From a bacterium (lineage in GTDB: Bacteria > Oederibacteriota > Muellerivitia > Muellerivitales > Muellerivitaceae): a stretch of DNA of 64,000 bases. Below the pieces are notes generated by a model. The model was not told the DNA's origin. It ran no database searches and worked only from the letters and a program-made list of their open reading frames with translations. The stretch is from NCBI GenBank assembly GCA_035549195.1, contig DASZRK010000017.1, positions 124,001-188,000 on the forward strand, read 5' to 3'. The position numbers and the translations under genes were made by a program. The first letter of the stretch is position 1, and each line of letters begins with the position of its first letter. Shown piece after piece: positions 13,395 to 21,415 of the stretch.

Positions 13395-16300
13395 TCAGAT
13401 CGTCTTTTCCTCGAATTTCACCCATTCCGGCAATCGCTTGAACAACTCCCGGACCCGCACCTGGGTCCTCTCGATGCGTTCCATCAATTCCTCGGCGCCC
13501 GGGCCCTGGGCCCCCCCCAAACGCCAGGCCAGGCGTTTCAGGCGGACCGGGTCCGTCGGCAGTTCATCATCGGCGGTCTCCCGCACCATCCGGTGCCGGG
13601 CCTCGATGAGCCGGTAGAAACGATAGGCGTCCATCAGCTCGATCGCTATACCCCGGGGCAATAAATTCTCCTCCGCCAGGTACCCCAGGGCGCTGGGCAG
13701 GTGGGGCATCCGGATGAGCGGCCGGTCCTTGCCCCAGGCCACCTGCAGGGTCTGGACCAGGAACTCCACGTCCACGATGCCACCCGGCGAGACCTTCAGC
13801 TCGATCCCCTCGGCCTTTTTTGCCTTCTCCTCCATCTGGGAACGGATGTCGAAGATCGAACCCAGGTCCTCCTTCGTCAGCCCCCGGCCATAGACGTAAT
13901 CCTCGATGACCTCCTTGGCCCGGAACCCCACCTGGCGGTCCCCCGCCATGAAGACCGCCCGGGTATAGGCGAGACGCTCGGCGGCCTGGCCGTAGGCGGC
14001 GAAATAGCTCCGGTAGGCCTCCACCGAGTGCACCATCATGGCTTCCCGCCCCATGGGGCGCAGGCGCGCGTCGATCTTATAGGCCATGCCGTGGCTGGTG
14101 GGCGCGGCCAGTGCCCGGGTGAAGGTCTCGGAGAGCTTGAGATAGGTCTCGAACCCGATCCCCTTCCCTTCCTCATCCCCATAGATGAAGAGCAGGTCCA
14201 GGTCCGAACCGTAGTTCATCTCCCGCCCGCCCAACTTGCCCATGGCGAAGAGGCAGAAGCCTTTGGGGATCGAAGGACGTCCCGAGAGGATGGGAATGTC
14301 CATTTTTTCCGTGGCGATCCCCAGGGCGGCGCGGCTCACGGCCTGTGCCAGGCGGGAAAGCTCGGCGAAACTCTCGAAGAGGTCCCGCTTTCCCAGGATG
14401 TCCTGCAGGCCCACCCGCAGGACCTCGCTGTTGCGCAGGTCCCGGAGCCGGTTGAGCTTTTCCTCCCAATCGGAGGTCTCGGCCAGCAGGTCCTCCAGGG
14501 GGTCCAGGGTGTCCTGGATGGACTGGGGCGTCCCTTCGGACAGGGCCTTGATCACGATGTCGAAGTTGCCCGGCTGGAGCACCAGGATCTCGGAGAGGAA
14601 GAGGCTTTGGGAGAAAAGCTCCAACAACAGTTTCCGCAAGGCCGGTTTTTCCAGCAGGTAACGCACATAGAGGTCGGGCAGCGAGGTGGCCTGGAGGAAC
14701 CGTTCCATCTGGTTCAGGGCCCGGTCCGGATGGGAGACCTTCCGCAAACCGCCCAGCAGTTCGGTGGCGAAAGAGCTCCAGAGCCTTTCCCCCCGGGAGC
14801 CGGCGGTCTTGCGCAGGTGGTGGAAGATGTTCCTCAGGTTCACCCCCGCCTGGCGGGGTTCCAGGAAGAGCCCGGCCTTGGCGAGGGGCCCTTCCAGCCG
14901 GTCCAGGTCGCCCGTCATGGCCTCCTCGGCGATCAGGGCGAAGGGGTCCTTGCGCCGCTTGATCTGGAAGACTTCCTCATAGAGCGCCCGCACCCCCTTG
15001 GTGGTGGCGGCGTAATGGGCCTTGAACTGGCGGACCGGGGAGCCTTCGGCCCCGGCGTGGAACCCCAGGGACCGGGCGATCCTCTCCAGGTCCTCCTTCT
15101 TCTTGGGAAGGGTGTGGGTCTGGAGTCCGTGGACCATCTGCAGGTGGTGCTCGATGTTGCGCAGGAACCGGTAGCTGTCGGAGAGGAACTGGGCGTCGGC
15201 CTTGAGCAGGATGCCCTTGTCCCCCAGGATCGCCAGGGCCTCCAGGCTGTTGGCGTTGCGCACCTCGGGCCGGGCCCCCCCATGCACCAGCTGGAGGAAC
15301 TGGATGATGAACTCGATCTCGCGGATGCCGCCCATGCCCAGCTTCACCTGGGTGTGGAGGCGGCCCTTGGATTCCATCTTCTGCTTGATCAGGTCCATGA
15401 TCTCCCGGATCTCGGCCAGATAGACCGAGTCGTAGTTCTTCCGGAAGATGAAGGGCTCCACTTCCTTGAGGAAGCGGTCGCCCAGTCCCAGGTCGCCCGC
15501 GCAGGGCCTGGCCTTGAGCAGGGCCTGCAGTTCCCAGGGCTGGCTGCGCACCTCGTAATGCTCCAGGTAGGAGGGAAGGGAGCGGGCCATGTCGCCCAAC
15601 CCCTCGGGCCGCAGGCGCATATCGACCCGGAAGACATTCCCCAAGGGCGTGGGTTCGGACAGGACCTGGATGAGCCAGTCGGCCAGGTCGTTGAAGGCGC
15701 GGCGGGCCTTTTCCGCCTCCTCGCCCGCGAGGGGCGTGTCGTAAACGAAGAGCGGGTCGATGTCCGAACTGTAGTTGAGTTCCCGGCCGCCCAGCTTGCC
15801 CAGGCCCAGCACGCAGAAGGAGCCGGGCGGCAGGGGCGCGAAATGCGCCTTCCCCACCTCCAAGGCCTTTTCCACCAGGGCGTCGGCCAACCCCGCCATC
15901 TCGAAGGTCAGGTCCTTCACGTCGGTCAACCCCAGCAGGTCCCGGACGCCCAGGCGCAGCATCTGCCGGGCCTTCACCCGGCGCAGCGCGTTGAGCTTTC
16001 CCTCCTCATCGAGGGCCTGTTCCACTTCCACGTCCAACTCCGCCCGGAACCTCTCGGGCCGGAAGGGGGCGAAGACCCCGTCCTCCTCGAAGAGCCAGTA
16101 AAGGAGCGCCGGTTCCCGGCAAAGCACGGTGGTCAAGGCGGGACTCAACCCAAAGACCTGGGCCAAGGCCTTGCGGGCCACGGGGTTGCGGGTGAGGTAT
16201 TGGAAGAGCTGGGAGCGGTGGAAGGCGACATTGGCGAAGGTGCCGAAATGGTTGAGGGATTGGTCCGGATCGGGCGATTGGGCGAACTCGAAGAGCAGGA

Positions 16301-16469
16301 GCGGCAGGAGTTCCAGCCAGGCGGCCCGGTCGAAAAGGCCCTGGGCGAAGGCCGAAAGTTCCTTCCAGGCACGGGCGGGCTTCCGGAAGCCGTAAGGCTT
16401 CAGGAGCCGTTGGATCTCGGAGGCCGGTGGCGGCTTGGGCGAGGTGAGCAGGGGTCCCAGGGTTTCCAT
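13395..16469 (-). CDS. glnE: Bifunctional glutamine synthetase adenylyltransferase/deadenylylase
   Basis: 1024 aa, near the ~950 aa norm. It adds or removes AMP on glutamine synthetase. Two nucleotidyltransferase domains are visible: the N-terminal one with LGLGKLGGRELNYSSDIDPLFVYD (~220-243) and the C-terminal one with MGKLGGREMNYGSDLDLLFIYGD (~745-767), each with the G-S-DxD metal-binding signature. The helical linker with RQMLRLGVRDLL / LRVGLQDILGKRD repeats follows each. It is 10 bases downstream of the PII gene, so the sensor and the modifying enzyme are cotranscribed. Confidence 0.95.
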   Translation of the reverse strand: METLGPLLTSPKPPPASEIQRLLKPYGFRKPARAWKELSAFAQGLFDRAAWLELLPLLLFEFAQSPDPDQSLNHFGTFANVAFHRSQLFQYLTRNPVARKALAQVFGLSPALTTVLCREPALLYWLFEEDGVFAPFRPERFRAELDVEVEQALDEEGKLNALRRVKARQMLRLGVRDLLGLTDVKDLTFEMAGLADALVEKALEVGKAHFAPLPPGSFCVLGLGKLGGRELNYSSDIDPLFVYDTPLAGEEAEKARRAFNDLADWLIQVLSEPTPLGNVFRVDMRLRPEGLGDMARSLPSYLEHYEVRSQPWELQALLKARPCAGDLGLGDRFLKEVEPFIFRKNYDSVYLAEIREIMDLIKQKMESKGRLHTQVKLGMGGIREIEFIIQFLQLVHGGARPEVRNANSLEALAILGDKGILLKADAQFLSDSYRFLRNIEHHLQMVHGLQTHTLPKKKEDLERIARSLGFHAGAEGSPVRQFKAHYAATTKGVRALYEEVFQIKRRKDPFALIAEEAMTGDLDRLEGPLAKAGLFLEPRQAGVNLRNIFHHLRKTAGSRGERLWSSFATELLGGLRKVSHPDRALNQMERFLQATSLPDLYVRYLLEKPALRKLLLELFSQSLFLSEILVLQPGNFDIVIKALSEGTPQSIQDTLDPLEDLLAETSDWEEKLNRLRDLRNSEVLRVGLQDILGKRDLFESFAELSRLAQAVSRAALGIATEKMDIPILSGRPSIPKGFCLFAMGKLGGREMNYGSDLDLLFIYGDEEGKGIGFETYLKLSETFTRALAAPTSHGMAYKIDARLRPMGREAMMVHSVEAYRSYFAAYGQAAERLAYTRAVFMAGDRQVGFRAKEVIEDYVYGRGLTKEDLGSIFDIRSQMEEKAKKAEGIELKVSPGGIVDVEFLVQTLQVAWGKDRPLIRMPHLPSALGYLAEENLLPRGIAIELMDAYRFYRLIEARHRMVRETADDELPTDPVRLKRLAWRLGGAQGPGAEELMERIERTQVRVRELFKRLPEWVKFEEKTI

Positions 16470-16479
16470 GGGGAAGCCC

Positions 16480-16818
16480 TTACTTCACAGCTTCATCGCC
16501 TTTTTCATTGGTGCGGATGCGCAGCGCGTCGGTGACCGGCGACACGAAGACCTTCCCGTCGCCGATCTTGCCCGTCTTGGCGGCCCGGGCCAGGGCCTCC
16601 ATGATCCTGTCCTTCTGGTCGTCCGCACAGACCATCTCCAGCTTGAGCTTCGGGAGGAATTCGATGGTGACGGTGTCGCCGCCCAGTTCCTCATGGCCCT
16701 TCTGCTTGCCGAAGCCGCGCACCTCGGACACCGTCATGCCCGTGACGCCGACCTTCACCAGGGCTTCCTTCACCGCGTCCAGCTTGTGGGGCTTGATGAC
16801 CGCCTCAATCTTGACCAT
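16480..16818 (-). CDS. PII nitrogen-regulatory protein with tyrosine-less T-loop
   Basis: 112 aa. It senses 2-oxoglutarate and ATP/ADP and relays nitrogen status. MVKIEAVIKPHKLDAVKEAL, then VGVTGMTVSEVRGFGKQKGH, and TGKIGDGKVFV (B-loop) with RIRTNEKG (C-loop) are all conserved. The T-loop reads GHEELGGDTVTIEFLPK: one residue shorter than E. coli GlnB and without Tyr46 or Tyr51, so it cannot be uridylylated or adenylylated there. ATG at 16818 is fixed by AAGGAGAG; a longer reading to 16893 adds 25 non-homologous residues. Lies 10 bases before glnE. Confidence 0.93.
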   Translation of the reverse strand: MVKIEAVIKPHKLDAVKEALVKVGVTGMTVSEVRGFGKQKGHEELGGDTVTIEFLPKLKLEMVCADDQKDRIMEALARAAKTGKIGDGKVFVSPVTDALRIRTNEKGDEAVK

Positions 16819-16902: not shown

Positions 16903-18417
16903 TCACTCCACCTGTTTGCCGAGGAAAGGGACGTCCGGCAAGGGGATGTTCTGGTAGGCCTTGGGCAGGGCGGGCTCGATGAAGCGCCGGACGATCTGGG
17001 TGTGGAAGCCCCCCAGGACCAACAGCAAGAAGGCCAGGAAATAGAGCCTCGCCCGGGAACCGGCCGACAGGGCCGCCGGCATCGTCACCTTGGTCCGGTG
17101 CTCGAAAAGCAGCCAGAGGAACCGGAAGACCATGACCAGGTTGAAGAGCAAGACCAGCGCCAGGGGCGCCAGCAGGGCCCAATCCTTCTTCTCGATCAAT
17201 CCCTGCAGCAGGTAATATTTGCCGAAACAGCCGCCGGTGGGCGGCACGCCCGCCACCGAGAAGACCAGCACCACCCAGATCAGGGCCGCCCCCGGATCCT
17301 GGCGCCCCAGGCCCGACAATTGGGCCAGGGGATGGGAACCCGCCTTCTTGATGGCCGCCATCTCCACGGCCAGGAAAAGCCCGAACACGCCGATCACCTG
17401 GCTCACCAATTCCAGCAGGGACCCGGTCATGGAACTCTTGTTCCCGCATACGAACCCCAGCAGGGGAAAACCCAATTGGGCCAGGCTCAGGTAGGCCACG
17501 GCCGAGAGCAGGTCCTTCTGCCGCGCCGCCAGGACAAAGGCCCCCAAGGGTAACAGCGCCAAAAGACCCGCCGCTCCCGTGAACCAAGCGGGCGGGACCA
17601 TGCCCGGAAGGTTCAACACGAAGAAGAGAACGAGGAACAAGAGGAAGAGCGCGATCCGGGGGAGCAGGGCGGAGAGGAATCCCCAGAGGAAGAGCGGCCC
17701 TTGCGTGAAGGCCGGGGTCTGAAGGAAGGGCAAGGGAAAGAGGAAGACCGCCGCCAGGGACCCGGTGAAAAGGATGCCCGCCGCCTGGGCCAGGTCGAAG
17801 GACTTGTCCATGAAGAGCTGAGCGCGCAGGTCACTCAGGTGGAAGGTCCCGGCGGAGGCATGGAGCACGAGGAAGCCGGAGAGGAAAAGGGTCGCGGCCA
17901 GGCTTCCCCAGAGCAGGAACCGGAATCCCTCGCCCGTTCCCTTGCGGGTGATGCCCACCAAGAGGCCCGCGCCCGCCGACACCGCGGCCTGGACCAGGAG
18001 ATAAAGGGTGAAGCCGTCCCGGACGACCAGGATCCCGGCCAGGCTCCCCGCCATCCATAAAAGGAGGGAACCCGCCAGGGTTTCCCGGCTCTTCAAGAGC
18101 CCCGCCAGAAGACCAAAGGGACCCAAGGAGGCGTATCCCAGCAATCCCGCGCCCAACACGAAGAAGCTCAGGAAAAGGGTCAAGGGCCCCAGGACCACTT
18201 CGATGCCCCAGGGGGGCGGCCAGCCGCCGAGCGAATAATGCCAAGGGCCCTGCGCCAGGACCACCGGAAGCGCGAGACACGCGAAGACCAGCGAAAGGGC
18301 CCAACCCAGGTAGCCCGCCAGTCGGGAAAGCCGGTAGGACAGGGGGCCCAAGGCCGCCACGGCCCAAGCCCCGGCCCAAAGCCCCAGGGGGATGAGGATG
18401 GGAAGGTGGTCCCTCAT
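16903..18417 (-). CDS. MrpD/NuoN-like antiporter-type membrane subunit, degenerate
   Basis: 504 aa, about 14 membrane helices. Family marks include WHYSLGGWPPPWGIEVVLGPLTLFLSFFV (N-terminus of MrpD/HyfB-like subunits), RQKDLLSAVAYLSLAQLGFPLLGF and VAGVPPTGGCFGKYYLLQGLI. By eye, several charged residues of the proton path are changed: the helix-5 glutamate position reads LLVQAAV, the helix-7 lysine position reads LLPRIAL, and the usual HAFFK/HALAK segment reads LVSQVIGVF. It may have lost proton pumping or act as a structural subunit. ATG at 18417 overlaps the previous gene's stop (ATGA). Confidence 0.75.
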   Translation of the reverse strand: MRDHLPILIPLGLWAGAWAVAALGPLSYRLSRLAGYLGWALSLVFACLALPVVLAQGPWHYSLGGWPPPWGIEVVLGPLTLFLSFFVLGAGLLGYASLGPFGLLAGLLKSRETLAGSLLLWMAGSLAGILVVRDGFTLYLLVQAAVSAGAGLLVGITRKGTGEGFRFLLWGSLAATLFLSGFLVLHASAGTFHLSDLRAQLFMDKSFDLAQAAGILFTGSLAAVFLFPLPFLQTPAFTQGPLFLWGFLSALLPRIALFLLFLVLFFVLNLPGMVPPAWFTGAAGLLALLPLGAFVLAARQKDLLSAVAYLSLAQLGFPLLGFVCGNKSSMTGSLLELVSQVIGVFGLFLAVEMAAIKKAGSHPLAQLSGLGRQDPGAALIWVVLVFSVAGVPPTGGCFGKYYLLQGLIEKKDWALLAPLALVLLFNLVMVFRFLWLLFEHRTKVTMPAALSAGSRARLYFLAFLLLVLGGFHTQIVRRFIEPALPKAYQNIPLPDVPFLGKQVE

Positions 18418-18704
18418 TTCGCGCCCTTACGGGCCGGGCCTTTGGAAACGGCCTCGGGTGCGGGGATCCGGCGGGAAAGGGCCCAGAGGACCCCGAGGAC
18501 CGTTAAGGAGACGAAACCAAAGACCCACGCGACCGTGAAGGTCACGGCCCCGCCCTGGGGTTCCAGGAGCAGGATGGCCAGCAGCCACCCGAGTTGGAAA
18601 AGGGCCCAAGCCCCGACCCGGGTCTTGGGGGATGCGGCCATGGCCATCCCGAAGAAGCCGAGGACCGCCATCAGGATCGGAAGGAGGAAATGAAGGCTAG
18701 TCAC
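18414..18704 (-). CDS. MrpC/NuoK-like small membrane subunit
   Basis: 96 aa with three predicted helices (LHFLLPILMAVLGFFGMAMAA, AWALFQLGWLLAILLLE, AVTFTVAWVFGFVSLTVLGVLWAL) and a basic tail. The size, topology and position between a B/E-like and a D-like subunit point to the MrpC/MbhG/NuoK group, although the conserved glutamates of NuoK are not obvious. GTG at 18704 has GGAG 7 bases upstream; it overlaps both neighbours by 4-8 bases. Confidence 0.5.
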   Translation of the reverse strand: MTSLHFLLPILMAVLGFFGMAMAASPKTRVGAWALFQLGWLLAILLLEPQGGAVTFTVAWVFGFVSLTVLGVLWALSRRIPAPEAVSKGPARKGAK

Positions 18705-19233
18705 GGGAATGCTCCGCCGGGCCTTCGGTCCGGAAGGCCGCCAGCAAGGCCCCTAATAAGGAAAGACCCGCCGCCCAGGAAAGCCAAAAGACACCCTTCC
18801 ACCGGGCCTCCAGCGGATCCACCCACCGGGCGAGGGCCTCATGGTCCAGGAAATTGCTGCCTTGGGCCAACTCCACCAGGCCCAGTCCCAACGCAACACC
18901 GGTGCCCAGCGTCAGCAGGAGTCCGGCCACGCCCCGGTGCCCCTTCGGGTCCAGGAGCAGCACCACCCAGCCGGCGATCCCGAAGAGGACCGAGGCGGCG
19001 GCCAGGTCGAAGCCCCGGTAATCGCCCAGGACGGCCATGCGGGGAGAGGCGATGCGGGTCTCGGACAGGGAATCTTTTTCATAACGGGGCATCAAATGGC
19101 CGGGAGGCGGATCGAGGGGGACCCGGGAGAAAGCGTCCAGGAGGGCCAGGGCCAGTAGGACGCCCAGGAACGGCAGGATTTTCTTCAAAAGAGCGCCTCT
19201 TCGCGATTGGGGCTGGGGTGACGGATGCCTCAT
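18697..19233 (-). CDS. MbhE/MrpB-like membrane subunit
   Basis: About 178 aa, five predicted helices. The segment RYEKDSLSETRIASPRMAVLGDYRGFDLAAASVLFGIAGWVVLLL resembles the MbhE/MrpB junction, where family members read ETG..N.VTAILLDYR.FDTLGE..VLF. It begins a three-gene unit with the C- and D-like subunits. The start is uncertain: ATG at 19233 lacks a ribosome site, TTG at 19188 has AGAGG 7 bases upstream; starts farther upstream would collide with the divergent glycosyltransferase. No MrpA, EFG or hydrogenase/quinone module is nearby. Confidence 0.55.
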   Translation of the reverse strand: MRHPSPQPQSRRGALLKKILPFLGVLLALALLDAFSRVPLDPPPGHLMPRYEKDSLSETRIASPRMAVLGDYRGFDLAAASVLFGIAGWVVLLLDPKGHRGVAGLLLTLGTGVALGLGLVELAQGSNFLDHEALARWVDPLEARWKGVFWLSWAAGLSLLGALLAAFRTEGPAEHSRD

Positions 19234-19282: not shown

Positions 19283-21415
19283 TTGGCCAACTCCCCAGCC
19301 AACGCCATCCCTTTTTTCATCGCGCTTTTCCTGGCCGCCCTGGGCCAGGCCGCCTTGGCCCTTGGGCCTTCCTTCCTGGGACTCTGCGTGGGCCTCTTGG
19401 GTTACGCGGCGGCCCTGGCGACCCTTTCCCACGCGTCCTCCGAGCCGAAAGCCGCCCCGGCGATCCCCCTGCGCTGGGAGGTCCTGGGCTTCCTGCTGGT
19501 CCTGGGGCTGGCCTTTTTCTTCCGGGTCTTCCGCATCGATTCCGTCCCGGCGGGGATGCATACGGACCAGGGCCTGACCGGGGTCTGCGCCCTTCGCATC
19601 CTGCACGAAGGATGGCGGCCCTTCGGGGAGGTCTTCGATTACGAGGTGCCCGAGGTCCTTCTTTTCTACCAACTGGCCGGGTGGTTCGGGCTGGCGGGAT
19701 CCTCCCTTTTCTCCTTCCATCTTTTCTTCATCCTGCTTTCCCTGACTTCCTTTCCCTTCATTTACTGGACGGTCCGGCAATGGGCCGGGCCCCGCACCGC
19801 CCTGCTCTCCCTCTTCGTGCTGGCGGTGATGCGGTGGAATTGGACCATGACCCGCAACGGTTACCCCAGCATCCAGGTCCCTTTCTATCTCTTCGGCGCC
19901 CTGGCCTTCTGGACCTATGGCCTGCGCCGGGACAAGCGTTGGGCCTTTTACCTTTCCGCCCTTTTCGTCGGGGCCGGGTTCTACACCTACCAGGCCTTCA
20001 AGATCGTCCCCTTCCTCATGCTGGCTTACGCGGCGGACGAATGGCTCCACCAAAAAAAGCGGGACCCCCAACCCTTCCTGCGCTATTTCCTGTTGGTGCT
20101 CATCCTTTGCGCGCCCCTTTTGGCGGTCATGGCCCAAAAGAAGCAGTTGGGTTTCCGGGAAAAGGCCCTTTTCCTGGGCACGGCCCTGGTGGAAGAGCGG
20201 AGCTTGAAACCCCTTGGGGACGTTTGGGCCGGTACGGCCCTCATGTTCAACCGCGCCGGGGACCCGAACCCCCGCCACAACATCCCGGACCGCCGGATGC
20301 TGGATGATGTCACGGGGGTCCTTTTCATCCTGGGGCTGGGACTGGCCTGGCGGAGGCGCCGGGAACCGGGCTTTTTCTATCCGCTCGCCGGCGCCGGGGC
20401 GATGCTGCTGACGAACCTCCTCACCACCGACCCCGCCCACGCCAACCGGCTGGTCTCCCTCACGCCCTTCGTGGCCTTCTTCGCGGGCGTCATGCTCGAT
20501 CGGACCTTCGAGGCCGCGGGGGCCCTGTTCAAGAAACCCAGTGTGCCCGCCCTGCTCCTGGCGAACCTGATGGCCCTCATGACCGCCCAGAACGTTCACA
20601 CCTATTTCGTGCGGCAGGCCCGGGATCCGGCCTGCCTGGACGCCTTCGGGCCCGCGCAGAACTTCATCGGCCAAAGCATCCTGAAAGCGGAACGGAACGC
20701 GCCCGGCAGGGACCGTTACTTCATCCCCTCTTCTTTTTACGGGAACCATACCGTCGCCTTCCTGACCTACCCCATGAAGGATGCGGTCCATCCTTTCCAT
20801 CTGGCGGATTGGATCTCGGGAAAGGCCCCGACCGAAAGACCTTCCCTGCTCTTCCTCGAGGGCGGGAAGAAGGGCGTCGTCGACCTGCTCGAGATGGTCC
20901 ATCCGGGCCTCTCGGCCGCCCCTTACCGGGACAGCGCCGGGCATGCCCTGCTTTATATCGGTTATATCCAACCGGCCGGCCCGAAGGGGCCGGTCCCCTG
21001 GACGAGGGGTCTCCAGGGGGTCTACTTCAACGGGGCGGATTGGAAAGGCAAGCCCACGGCCATTCAAAGGGACCCGCTCCTCAATTTCACTTCCAAGTTC
21101 GATTTCCCCTTCACCCAGGGCCCGCCCTTTCGGGTCCGCTGGACGGGGGAATTGAGGATCGACCAGGCGGGGGATTACCAGTTCCAGGCCCTGGCGACCG
21201 ACCAGGTCCGATTATGGCTGGATGGGAAAGCGGTCCAAGGGGGGCAAGGGACCCGTTTGGGGAAGGGCTCCCATTCCTTGCGGCTGGAGCTCGAGAAGGA
21301 TTCGGGGGATCAACTGGCCTTGACGCTCATCTGGAAGAGGCCCGGCACGGACAAATGGCAGGTGGTCCCCGCCACGGCCTTCGGGAAGGTCCCGCTCAGG
21401 GTTTCTTCCCGCTGA
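19283..21415 (+). CDS. GT39-type membrane glycosyltransferase fused to C-terminal PA14 domain
   Basis: 710 aa. Residues ~1-430 are a multi-helix GT-C enzyme; the first periplasmic loop has IDSVPAGMHTDQGLTGVCALRIL and FGEVFDYEVPEVLLFYQLAGW, with the acidic residues expected in PMT/ArnT-like transferases. After a soluble ~150-residue stretch, residues ~575-700 form a PA14-like beta-barrel (GVYFNGADWKGKP, FRVRWTGELRIDQAGDYQF, DQVRLWLDGKAV, SHSLRLELEK), a carbohydrate-binding module. It probably glycosylates an envelope substrate and holds glycan through PA14. TTG at 19283 is preceded by GGAG. Confidence 0.82.
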   Translation: MANSPANAIPFFIALFLAALGQAALALGPSFLGLCVGLLGYAAALATLSHASSEPKAAPAIPLRWEVLGFLLVLGLAFFFRVFRIDSVPAGMHTDQGLTGVCALRILHEGWRPFGEVFDYEVPEVLLFYQLAGWFGLAGSSLFSFHLFFILLSLTSFPFIYWTVRQWAGPRTALLSLFVLAVMRWNWTMTRNGYPSIQVPFYLFGALAFWTYGLRRDKRWAFYLSALFVGAGFYTYQAFKIVPFLMLAYAADEWLHQKKRDPQPFLRYFLLVLILCAPLLAVMAQKKQLGFREKALFLGTALVEERSLKPLGDVWAGTALMFNRAGDPNPRHNIPDRRMLDDVTGVLFILGLGLAWRRRREPGFFYPLAGAGAMLLTNLLTTDPAHANRLVSLTPFVAFFAGVMLDRTFEAAGALFKKPSVPALLLANLMALMTAQNVHTYFVRQARDPACLDAFGPAQNFIGQSILKAERNAPGRDRYFIPSSFYGNHTVAFLTYPMKDAVHPFHLADWISGKAPTERPSLLFLEGGKKGVVDLLEMVHPGLSAAPYRDSAGHALLYIGYIQPAGPKGPVPWTRGLQGVYFNGADWKGKPTAIQRDPLLNFTSKFDFPFTQGPPFRVRWTGELRIDQAGDYQFQALATDQVRLWLDGKAVQGGQGTRLGKGSHSLRLELEKDSGDQLALTLIWKRPGTDKWQVVPATAFGKVPLRVSSR

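Follow-up and report, generated by a model that had tools for sequence, protein, structure and literature searches.

A three-gene Mrp/Mbh-like membrane module with a putatively interrupted ion path, conserved in one bacterial family

What can a Mrp/Mbh-like membrane module do when only three of its genes stand together and the residues that should carry the ions appear to be replaced? The question is raised by a locus in the window analysed here, a stretch of 64,000 nucleotides (contig DASZRK010000017.1, positions 124,001 to 188,000), to which all unlabelled coordinates refer. The host genome, G000, has 3.2 Mb and a completeness of 97.9%. A preliminary description, made from the sequence alone, had reported three overlapping genes similar to MbhE/MrpB, MrpC and MrpD, with neither MrpA nor any hydrogenase or quinone subunit, and had proposed a minimal or repurposed membrane complex. 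The three genes are indeed found as one overlapping array on the minus strand at 16903-19233 (B and C share 8 bases, C and D share 4), and profile matches give the order B, C, D as MbhE/MrpB, MbhG/MrpC and MbhH/MrpD, in agreement with the identities first proposed.

Gene B: 18697..19233, minus strand, 178 amino acids from the ATG, MbhE-like N-terminal half joined to the C-terminal half of MnhB/MrpB
Gene C: 18414..18704, minus strand, MbhG/MrpC/NuoK-like protein of 96 amino acids with a shortened TM2-TM3 loop
Gene D: 16903..18417, minus strand, MbhH/MrpD-like antiporter-fold subunit of 504 amino acids

The identity of D is clear. It matches PF00361 (E = 2.7e-21; 76.5 bits versus a cut-off of 21.5), and its best relatives of solved structure are MbsH (6u8y_H, E = 8.3e-31), MrpD (7qru_D, 3.4e-30) and MbhH (6cfw_H, 7.2e-28). 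The predicted structure, of moderate confidence (pLDDT 64.7, pTM 0.70) and built, as was that of B, on seven sequences only, has the 14-helix fold of antiporters and of complex I antiporter-like subunits, and 450 of its residues align with 6z16_D (Z 24.2, rmsd 4.4). A single B or C protein gave no Pfam match over the cut-off. Profiles built from the proteins of seven genomes (described below) connected C with MbhG (profile A2 against 6cfw_G, E = 1.8e-4) and B with MbsE (profile A3 against 6u8y_E, E = 6.4e-6).

In other genomes, the N-terminal half of B matches MbhE ORFs and its C-terminal half matches MnhB ORFs, and at locus L175 a single fused protein matches both halves, with about 60 extra residues between them. 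Judged by these alignments, B is an MbhE-MrpB fusion minus the MrpB signature region: 70 of the 79 relative loci have an ORF with a PGGGF/L motif, and none of the seven B proteins shows the related H-PGGG pattern. The start of the gene may lie at a TTG near 19188, which fits the start of the orthologues better than the ATG. A fold search with the B model (pLDDT 74.3) returned unrelated helical bundles, and MbsE was absent among the rows shown. Regarding C, the MrpC/MbhG subfamily is marked by a TM2 Gln and a long TM2-TM3 loop followed by NPLPH-LTAIVV; in an alignment with 72 relatives, the loop of C is shortened and the LTAIVV motif is not kept. The Gln of C (Gln37) was considered as a neutralised carboxylate and this was rejected, since Gln is the subfamily norm (68/72 relatives).

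The survey of other genomes suggested in the preliminary description was carried out, and it found the trio in seven of the eight genomes of the host family (f1, placed near FCPU426) and in none of the 37 other genomes of the phylum. Besides the host, the search with D among these 45 genomes gave full-length orthologues (40-55% identity) in six further genomes of the family, and the remaining matches in the phylum were far weaker (E of 1e-23 or above). The seven genomes span four genera (g1, g2, g4 and g5). The closest named relative of D, full length and 55% identical, lies on a contig (L021) labelled "candidate division FCPU426". With a profile of the seven D sequences (A1), run against 384 genomes of 331 genera, the seven scored 771-906 bits and no other match listed exceeded 279 bits, and five genomes in the phylum of G138, a genome with a related D protein, held no trio-like D above 279 bits. 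The same profile found 13 pattern matches and no relative of D in the viral contigs scanned. The eighth genome of the family, G025, was rejected as a genuine absence, as its completeness is 65% and the best match there to the glycosyltransferase found next to the trio in the other genomes, on a contig of 5978 bases and without the MHTDQG motif, looks like another paralogue. The trio is thus real and so far seen in one family only. The open-licence literature, screened by titles and the beginnings of abstracts, yielded no recognisable description of such an incomplete or inactive Mrp-like module, and nothing linking FCPU426 with complex I and Mrp.

Across the seven genomes, with start codons chosen by us, all frames of the trio are intact and the order B, C, D is constant. 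The overlap of C and D is 4 bases in every genome, and B overlaps or directly adjoins C in six, with a gap in G030. A promoter scan found no promoter. The dN/dS ratios, calculated by the Nei-Gojobori method with many pairs near saturation, are 0.12-0.45 for D in 21 pairwise comparisons (0.148 for the closest pair, with dS 0.67) and, where finite, 0.22-0.68 for B and 0.17-0.90 for C, so B and C evolve faster than D. Hence, the trio is under continued purifying selection throughout the family.

The constraint on D has also moved, towards its loops and a new C-terminal tail.

D residues 482-504: 16906..16974, minus strand, new and nearly invariant C-terminal tail, probably periplasmic

The conservation of D was compared with that of control sets, each made of seven relatives with a similar mean identity (300 of the 658 sets); these sets share sequences, so the z values are descriptive only. 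Over all helices D resembles the controls (z -1.4). Conservation is lower in loop 4-5 (-15.5, three columns), loop 5-6 (-7.2) and the break in TM7 (-7.4), and it is higher in loop 1-2 (7.7, four columns), loop 6-7 (5.3), loop 11-12 (5.4) and loop 13-14 (4.4). The tail reaches 0.87 compared to 0.24 in the control sets, in which the relatives mostly end before it. From the helices of the model and the positively charged loops, both ends of D are predicted to be periplasmic.

The relatives used in these comparisons are 79 D proteins, that is, the best 80 of 222 loci from one scan minus the orthologue on L021, so they were chosen by likeness to the query; 75 of these loci provided relatives of B and 72 relatives of C. 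Positions of the ion path were carried over to D by alignment from MbsH (E138, E219, K250, H330 and K393, as excerpted from PMC7684303) and from MrpD (E137, as excerpted from PMC7419157).

D Gln143: 17989..17991, minus strand, at the TM5 Glu (MrpD E137 / MbsH E138), QQQQQEE in the seven versus Glu in 79/79 relatives
D residues 223-224: 17746..17751, minus strand, site where the TM7 Lys (MrpD K219) is deleted, a one-residue gap in 7/7
D Arg254: 17656..17658, minus strand, at the TM8 Lys (MbsH K250), Arg in 7/7 versus Lys in 77/79
D Glu336: 17410..17412, minus strand, at the TM11 His (MbsH H330), Glu in 7/7 versus His in 78/79
D Lys400: 17218..17220, minus strand, the TM12 Lys (MbsH K393), kept in 7/7 and in 79/79

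The path formed by the TM5 Glu, the Lys of TM7 and TM8, the His and Lys of TM11 and the TM12 Lys is incomplete in D, where only the last of them is found in all seven proteins. The TM5 Glu is retained in two genomes, G024 and G029. The column of the deleted TM7 Lys holds Lys in 78 relatives and Glu in one (n = 79), and in TM11 the second His is replaced by Gln340 (Gln in 7/7 versus His in 74/79) and the Lys by Val344 (Val in 7/7 versus Lys in 74/79). The preliminary description had read Gln, Arg and Ser/Val at the Glu, Lys and His/Lys positions. Gln143 (Gln in five of the seven genomes) and Arg254 bear out the first two. The third was wrong in part, because the TM12 Lys is kept; Ser and Val had to be rejected as the TM11 positions, where the alignment places Glu336, Gln340 and Val344.

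A full scan of D, counting as lost a position charged in at most two of the seven, extended this picture: besides the deleted Lys, D has lost 12 positions at which a charged residue or His is conserved in more than 80% of relatives, and the lost titratable positions include D77, H230, R262, K304 and E435. It had been foreseen that the charges might merely have shifted. D gained 16 charged or His positions, and only two of them (R32 and H472) lie inside helix cores of the model, which speaks mostly against such a shift. On the other hand, D is not wholly stripped, since the TM12 Lys remains and a Glu occupies the TM11 His position. This Glu336 need not be a defect because NuoM of the same genome also carries Glu there, and Arg254 preserves the charge of the Lys.

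In B, one further position of this kind was found.

B Ala80: 18994..18996, minus strand, Glu in all 75 MbhE-like relatives, probably equivalent to the essential MrpA E796

The seven B proteins have A, A, V, V, L, T and L at this position. Nearby, an invariant Asn, an invariant Thr and two invariant Val are also gone, and the Tyr-Arg of DYR is kept. The lost Glu was equated with E796 of MrpA because of its D-x3-E spacing from D792; E796 is described as essential in the portion of PMC7419157 drawn on here. Taken together, and as far as alignment can tell, most of the conserved ion-path residues are lost in B and D.

The consequences may be judged from Bacillus Mrp, where the mutations MrpD-E137A and MrpD-K219A leave the complex intact and abolish all antiport, and where the MrpABCD subcomplex without EFG is inactive (both from an excerpt of PMC5703873). 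E137 and K219 are the same two positions that are altered in D. Nearly all ion-moving residues have been lost and selection still persists, which suggests an old ion pump turned into a membrane scaffold. We therefore lean, without great assurance, towards the trio being what is left of a larger Mrp/Mbh-like antiporter complex, no longer pumping but retained as a scaffold in the membrane. B would contribute the MbhE helices together with the last two of MrpB, C would be the small subunit of the NuoK/MrpC type and D the antiporter-fold subunit with its 14 helices. As in MBS, the three would pack side by side, and presumably no proton or cation would cross the membrane through them; the tail and the conserved loops of D may instead bind a partner at the periplasmic face. 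Of this reading, the loss of pumping has good support. The idea of a minimal or repurposed complex is strengthened in that the trio is family-wide, selected, partnerless by profile and deprived of most of its path, and weakened in that D keeps the TM12 Lys and has Glu336. A non-pumping scaffold is our own interpretation of these substitutions, and the TM12 Lys kept in 7/7, the TM5 Glu kept in 2/7, the Glu336 shared with NuoM and the charge of Arg254 count against it, as do the ordinary Gln of C, the faster evolution of B and C and the example of HycC in formate hydrogenlyase, which works although its TM7 Lys is missing and its path interrupted (excerpt of PMC9474812).

These same residues could belong to a transporter that still works along another route, with K400, E336 and R254 (and Glu143 in two genomes) as a modified half-channel for protons or some other cation, through which transport might be passive. 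K400, E336 and R254 are invariant in the seven, and HycC of formate hydrogenlyase is a case of an antiporter-like subunit that can take a different path (excerpt of PMC9474812). Nevertheless, this is unlikely, if worth keeping in mind, given that the core holds no compensating charges beyond R32 and H472, that the TM7 Lys is deleted in all seven, that B lacks the Glu found in every one of its 75 MbhE relatives, and that EFG and the MrpB signature parts are missing.

As to the missing partners, the profiles of MnhB, MbhE, MrpG, MrpE and MrpF found nothing in nine genomes (the eight of the family and G023), and the MbhD profile had one match, below the cut-off, in G023 and none in G000. For the first five families, matches were obtained in 5 to 7 of the 14 genomes used as controls. 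The B of the trio itself is not found by PF20501, and therefore degenerate partners could escape these profiles too. G000 has seven PF00361 matches, which by place and likeness are two L/M/N-type sets plus D. By profile, the MrpA-G set is incomplete in G000, with the proviso that profiles can miss degenerate members. No hydrogenase or reductase arm was found beside the trio, in G000 by Pfam annotation of its neighbours and in the other genomes by blast and ORF lists. The remaining Mrp genes, whose presence elsewhere would have counted against the preliminary description, did not turn up in the nine genomes by profile.

The failure of PF20501 on B leaves room for a full Mrp/Mbh complex whose other subunits have diverged beyond recognition by profiles. 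We give this little credence, because G000 has no PF00361 protein beyond the two L/M/N-type sets and D, and no further conserved same-strand membrane subunit stands beside the trio across the seven genomes. It is just as improbable that the trio attaches as an accessory to one of the two complex I sets and brings a dead antiporter-like subunit into its membrane arm. The complex I antiporter fold of D and the presence of two L/M/N-type sets in G000 would fit, but no nuo gene occurs in the stretches examined around the trio in seven genomes, complex I-type matches were found in all nine genomes whereas the trio, within the phylum, is confined to seven of the eight of its family, and the ORF list of nuo operon 1 has its own small and large membrane ORFs, as judged by order and size. 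These ORFs were also the reason to reject the trio as the source of a missing small complex I subunit. A decaying relic without function, which the lost residues and the poor conservation of B and C might suggest, is very hard to reconcile with frames open in 7/7, overlapping starts kept, the low dN/dS of D in the closest pair and a near-invariant tail.

The two L/M/N-type sets of G000 lie on contig C17 (395000-414000) and on contigs C3 and C76; from its position and the contig ends, the second appears to be split. Three further PF00361 proteins lie side by side in G029 (C13, 90753-97119) and G025 (C489, 2642-8997) and are absent from G000. They are possibly another hydrogenase- or Mrp-type cluster.

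The origin of the trio is indicated by its relatives. In a tree of 61 rows, with 35 of the 79 relatives, the seven D proteins group in a single clade (100/100) whose stem measures 2.1 changes per column, and which lies within a larger one (100/99) that also holds D proteins from Acidobacteriota, Actinomycetota, Bacillota and G138. Near relatives of the trio are full clusters with MrpE-F-G-MbhE-MnhB-C-D and two further antiporter-like genes. The one at L172 encodes MNHE, MrpF, MrpG, MbhE, MnhB, a NuoK-like protein, D and two more antiporter-like proteins, so the trio is probably a reduced form of a full Mrp-like cluster.

Among known systems, the membrane arm of the archaeal MBS and MBH (MbsE, MbsG and MbsH; 6u8y, 6cfw) has the same families in the same order, E(F)-G-H. 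MbsE is likewise of the E/F type; its TMH1-2 belong to the proximal module and its TMH3-6 to the distal one (excerpt of PMC7684303). In contrast to MBS and MBH, the trio has no adjoining hydrogenase-like or sulfane reductase arm, no MbhA-D turned up, the MrpB part of B is without its first half and the charged axis is mostly gone. The C-terminus of MrpA, MrpB, MrpC and MrpD of the Mrp (CPA3) Na+/H+ antiporter are homologous to the trio, in order, but the trio lacks MrpA, E, F and G and the residues whose mutation abolishes antiport. HycC is antiporter-like as D is, with the TM7 Lys missing and the path interrupted, and is still part of a working enzyme (excerpt of PMC9474812); unlike D, which has no enzyme arm nearby, it has retained the TM5 Glu and is built into a redox enzyme. 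The NuoM/NuoN-type proteins of complex I in the same genome belong to the family of D, and one NuoM shares the TM11 Glu, but the TM5 Glu and the TM7 Lys are both present in that NuoM and in the NuoN-type proteins aligned.

If the scaffold reading is true, the trio would be a natural counterpart of engineered dead Mrp and complex I mutants, in which evolution has removed most of the proton path and kept the fold through several genera. Comparison with intact relatives could then separate the residues of the ion path from those of folding and assembly, a question so far addressed piecemeal by mutagenesis of complex I and Mrp, and the complex I superfamily would gain a pseudo-transporter.

A candidate for the partner of such a scaffold is the divergent neighbour.

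PMT_2 glycosyltransferase with a C-terminal PA14 domain: 19283..21415, plus strand, divergent from the trio and adjacent to it in 7/7 genomes

The protein matches the Pfam families PMT_2 (E = 2.7e-12) and PA14 (E = 4e-10). As a guess, it could be the partner because it is the neighbour in all seven genomes, all seven trio-adjacent PMT proteins share the MHTDQG motif, and the tail of D and the active face of PMT, which we take to be periplasmic, would lie on the same side. Against this, the adjacency could be plain synteny. More specifically, and in our view doubtful, the dead Mrp/Mbh-type module might be a periplasm-facing platform whose tail and outer loops hold the PMT-PA14 protein or its lipid-linked sugar substrate, and thus serve envelope glycosylation and not bioenergetics. 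G000 has several PMT-PA14 paralogues, with seven matches (L182 and L183; contigs C23 and C40), some of which read through a stop or come in pieces.

The remaining neighbours of the trio in the window are, by Pfam, AcrB, Pcm, P-II, GlnE and an OYE-type oxidoreductase. Pcm is near the trio in five of the seven genomes, and AcrB was matched in five (two stretches stop short of it). P-II (16480-16818) and GlnE (13395-16469) are on the minus strand, with 84 bases from D to the ATG of P-II. They follow D in two genomes, G000 and G026, and none of the five remaining trio stretches, two of which end soon after D, showed this arrangement; as they adjoin D in only 2/7, P-II and GlnE were rejected as functional partners. 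Finally, a Mrp-like cluster of another phylum adjoins an ORF of 1004 amino acids (L178, 11797-14811, minus strand) that by eye resembles DabA, a protein that works with an antiporter-like one in the uptake of inorganic carbon.
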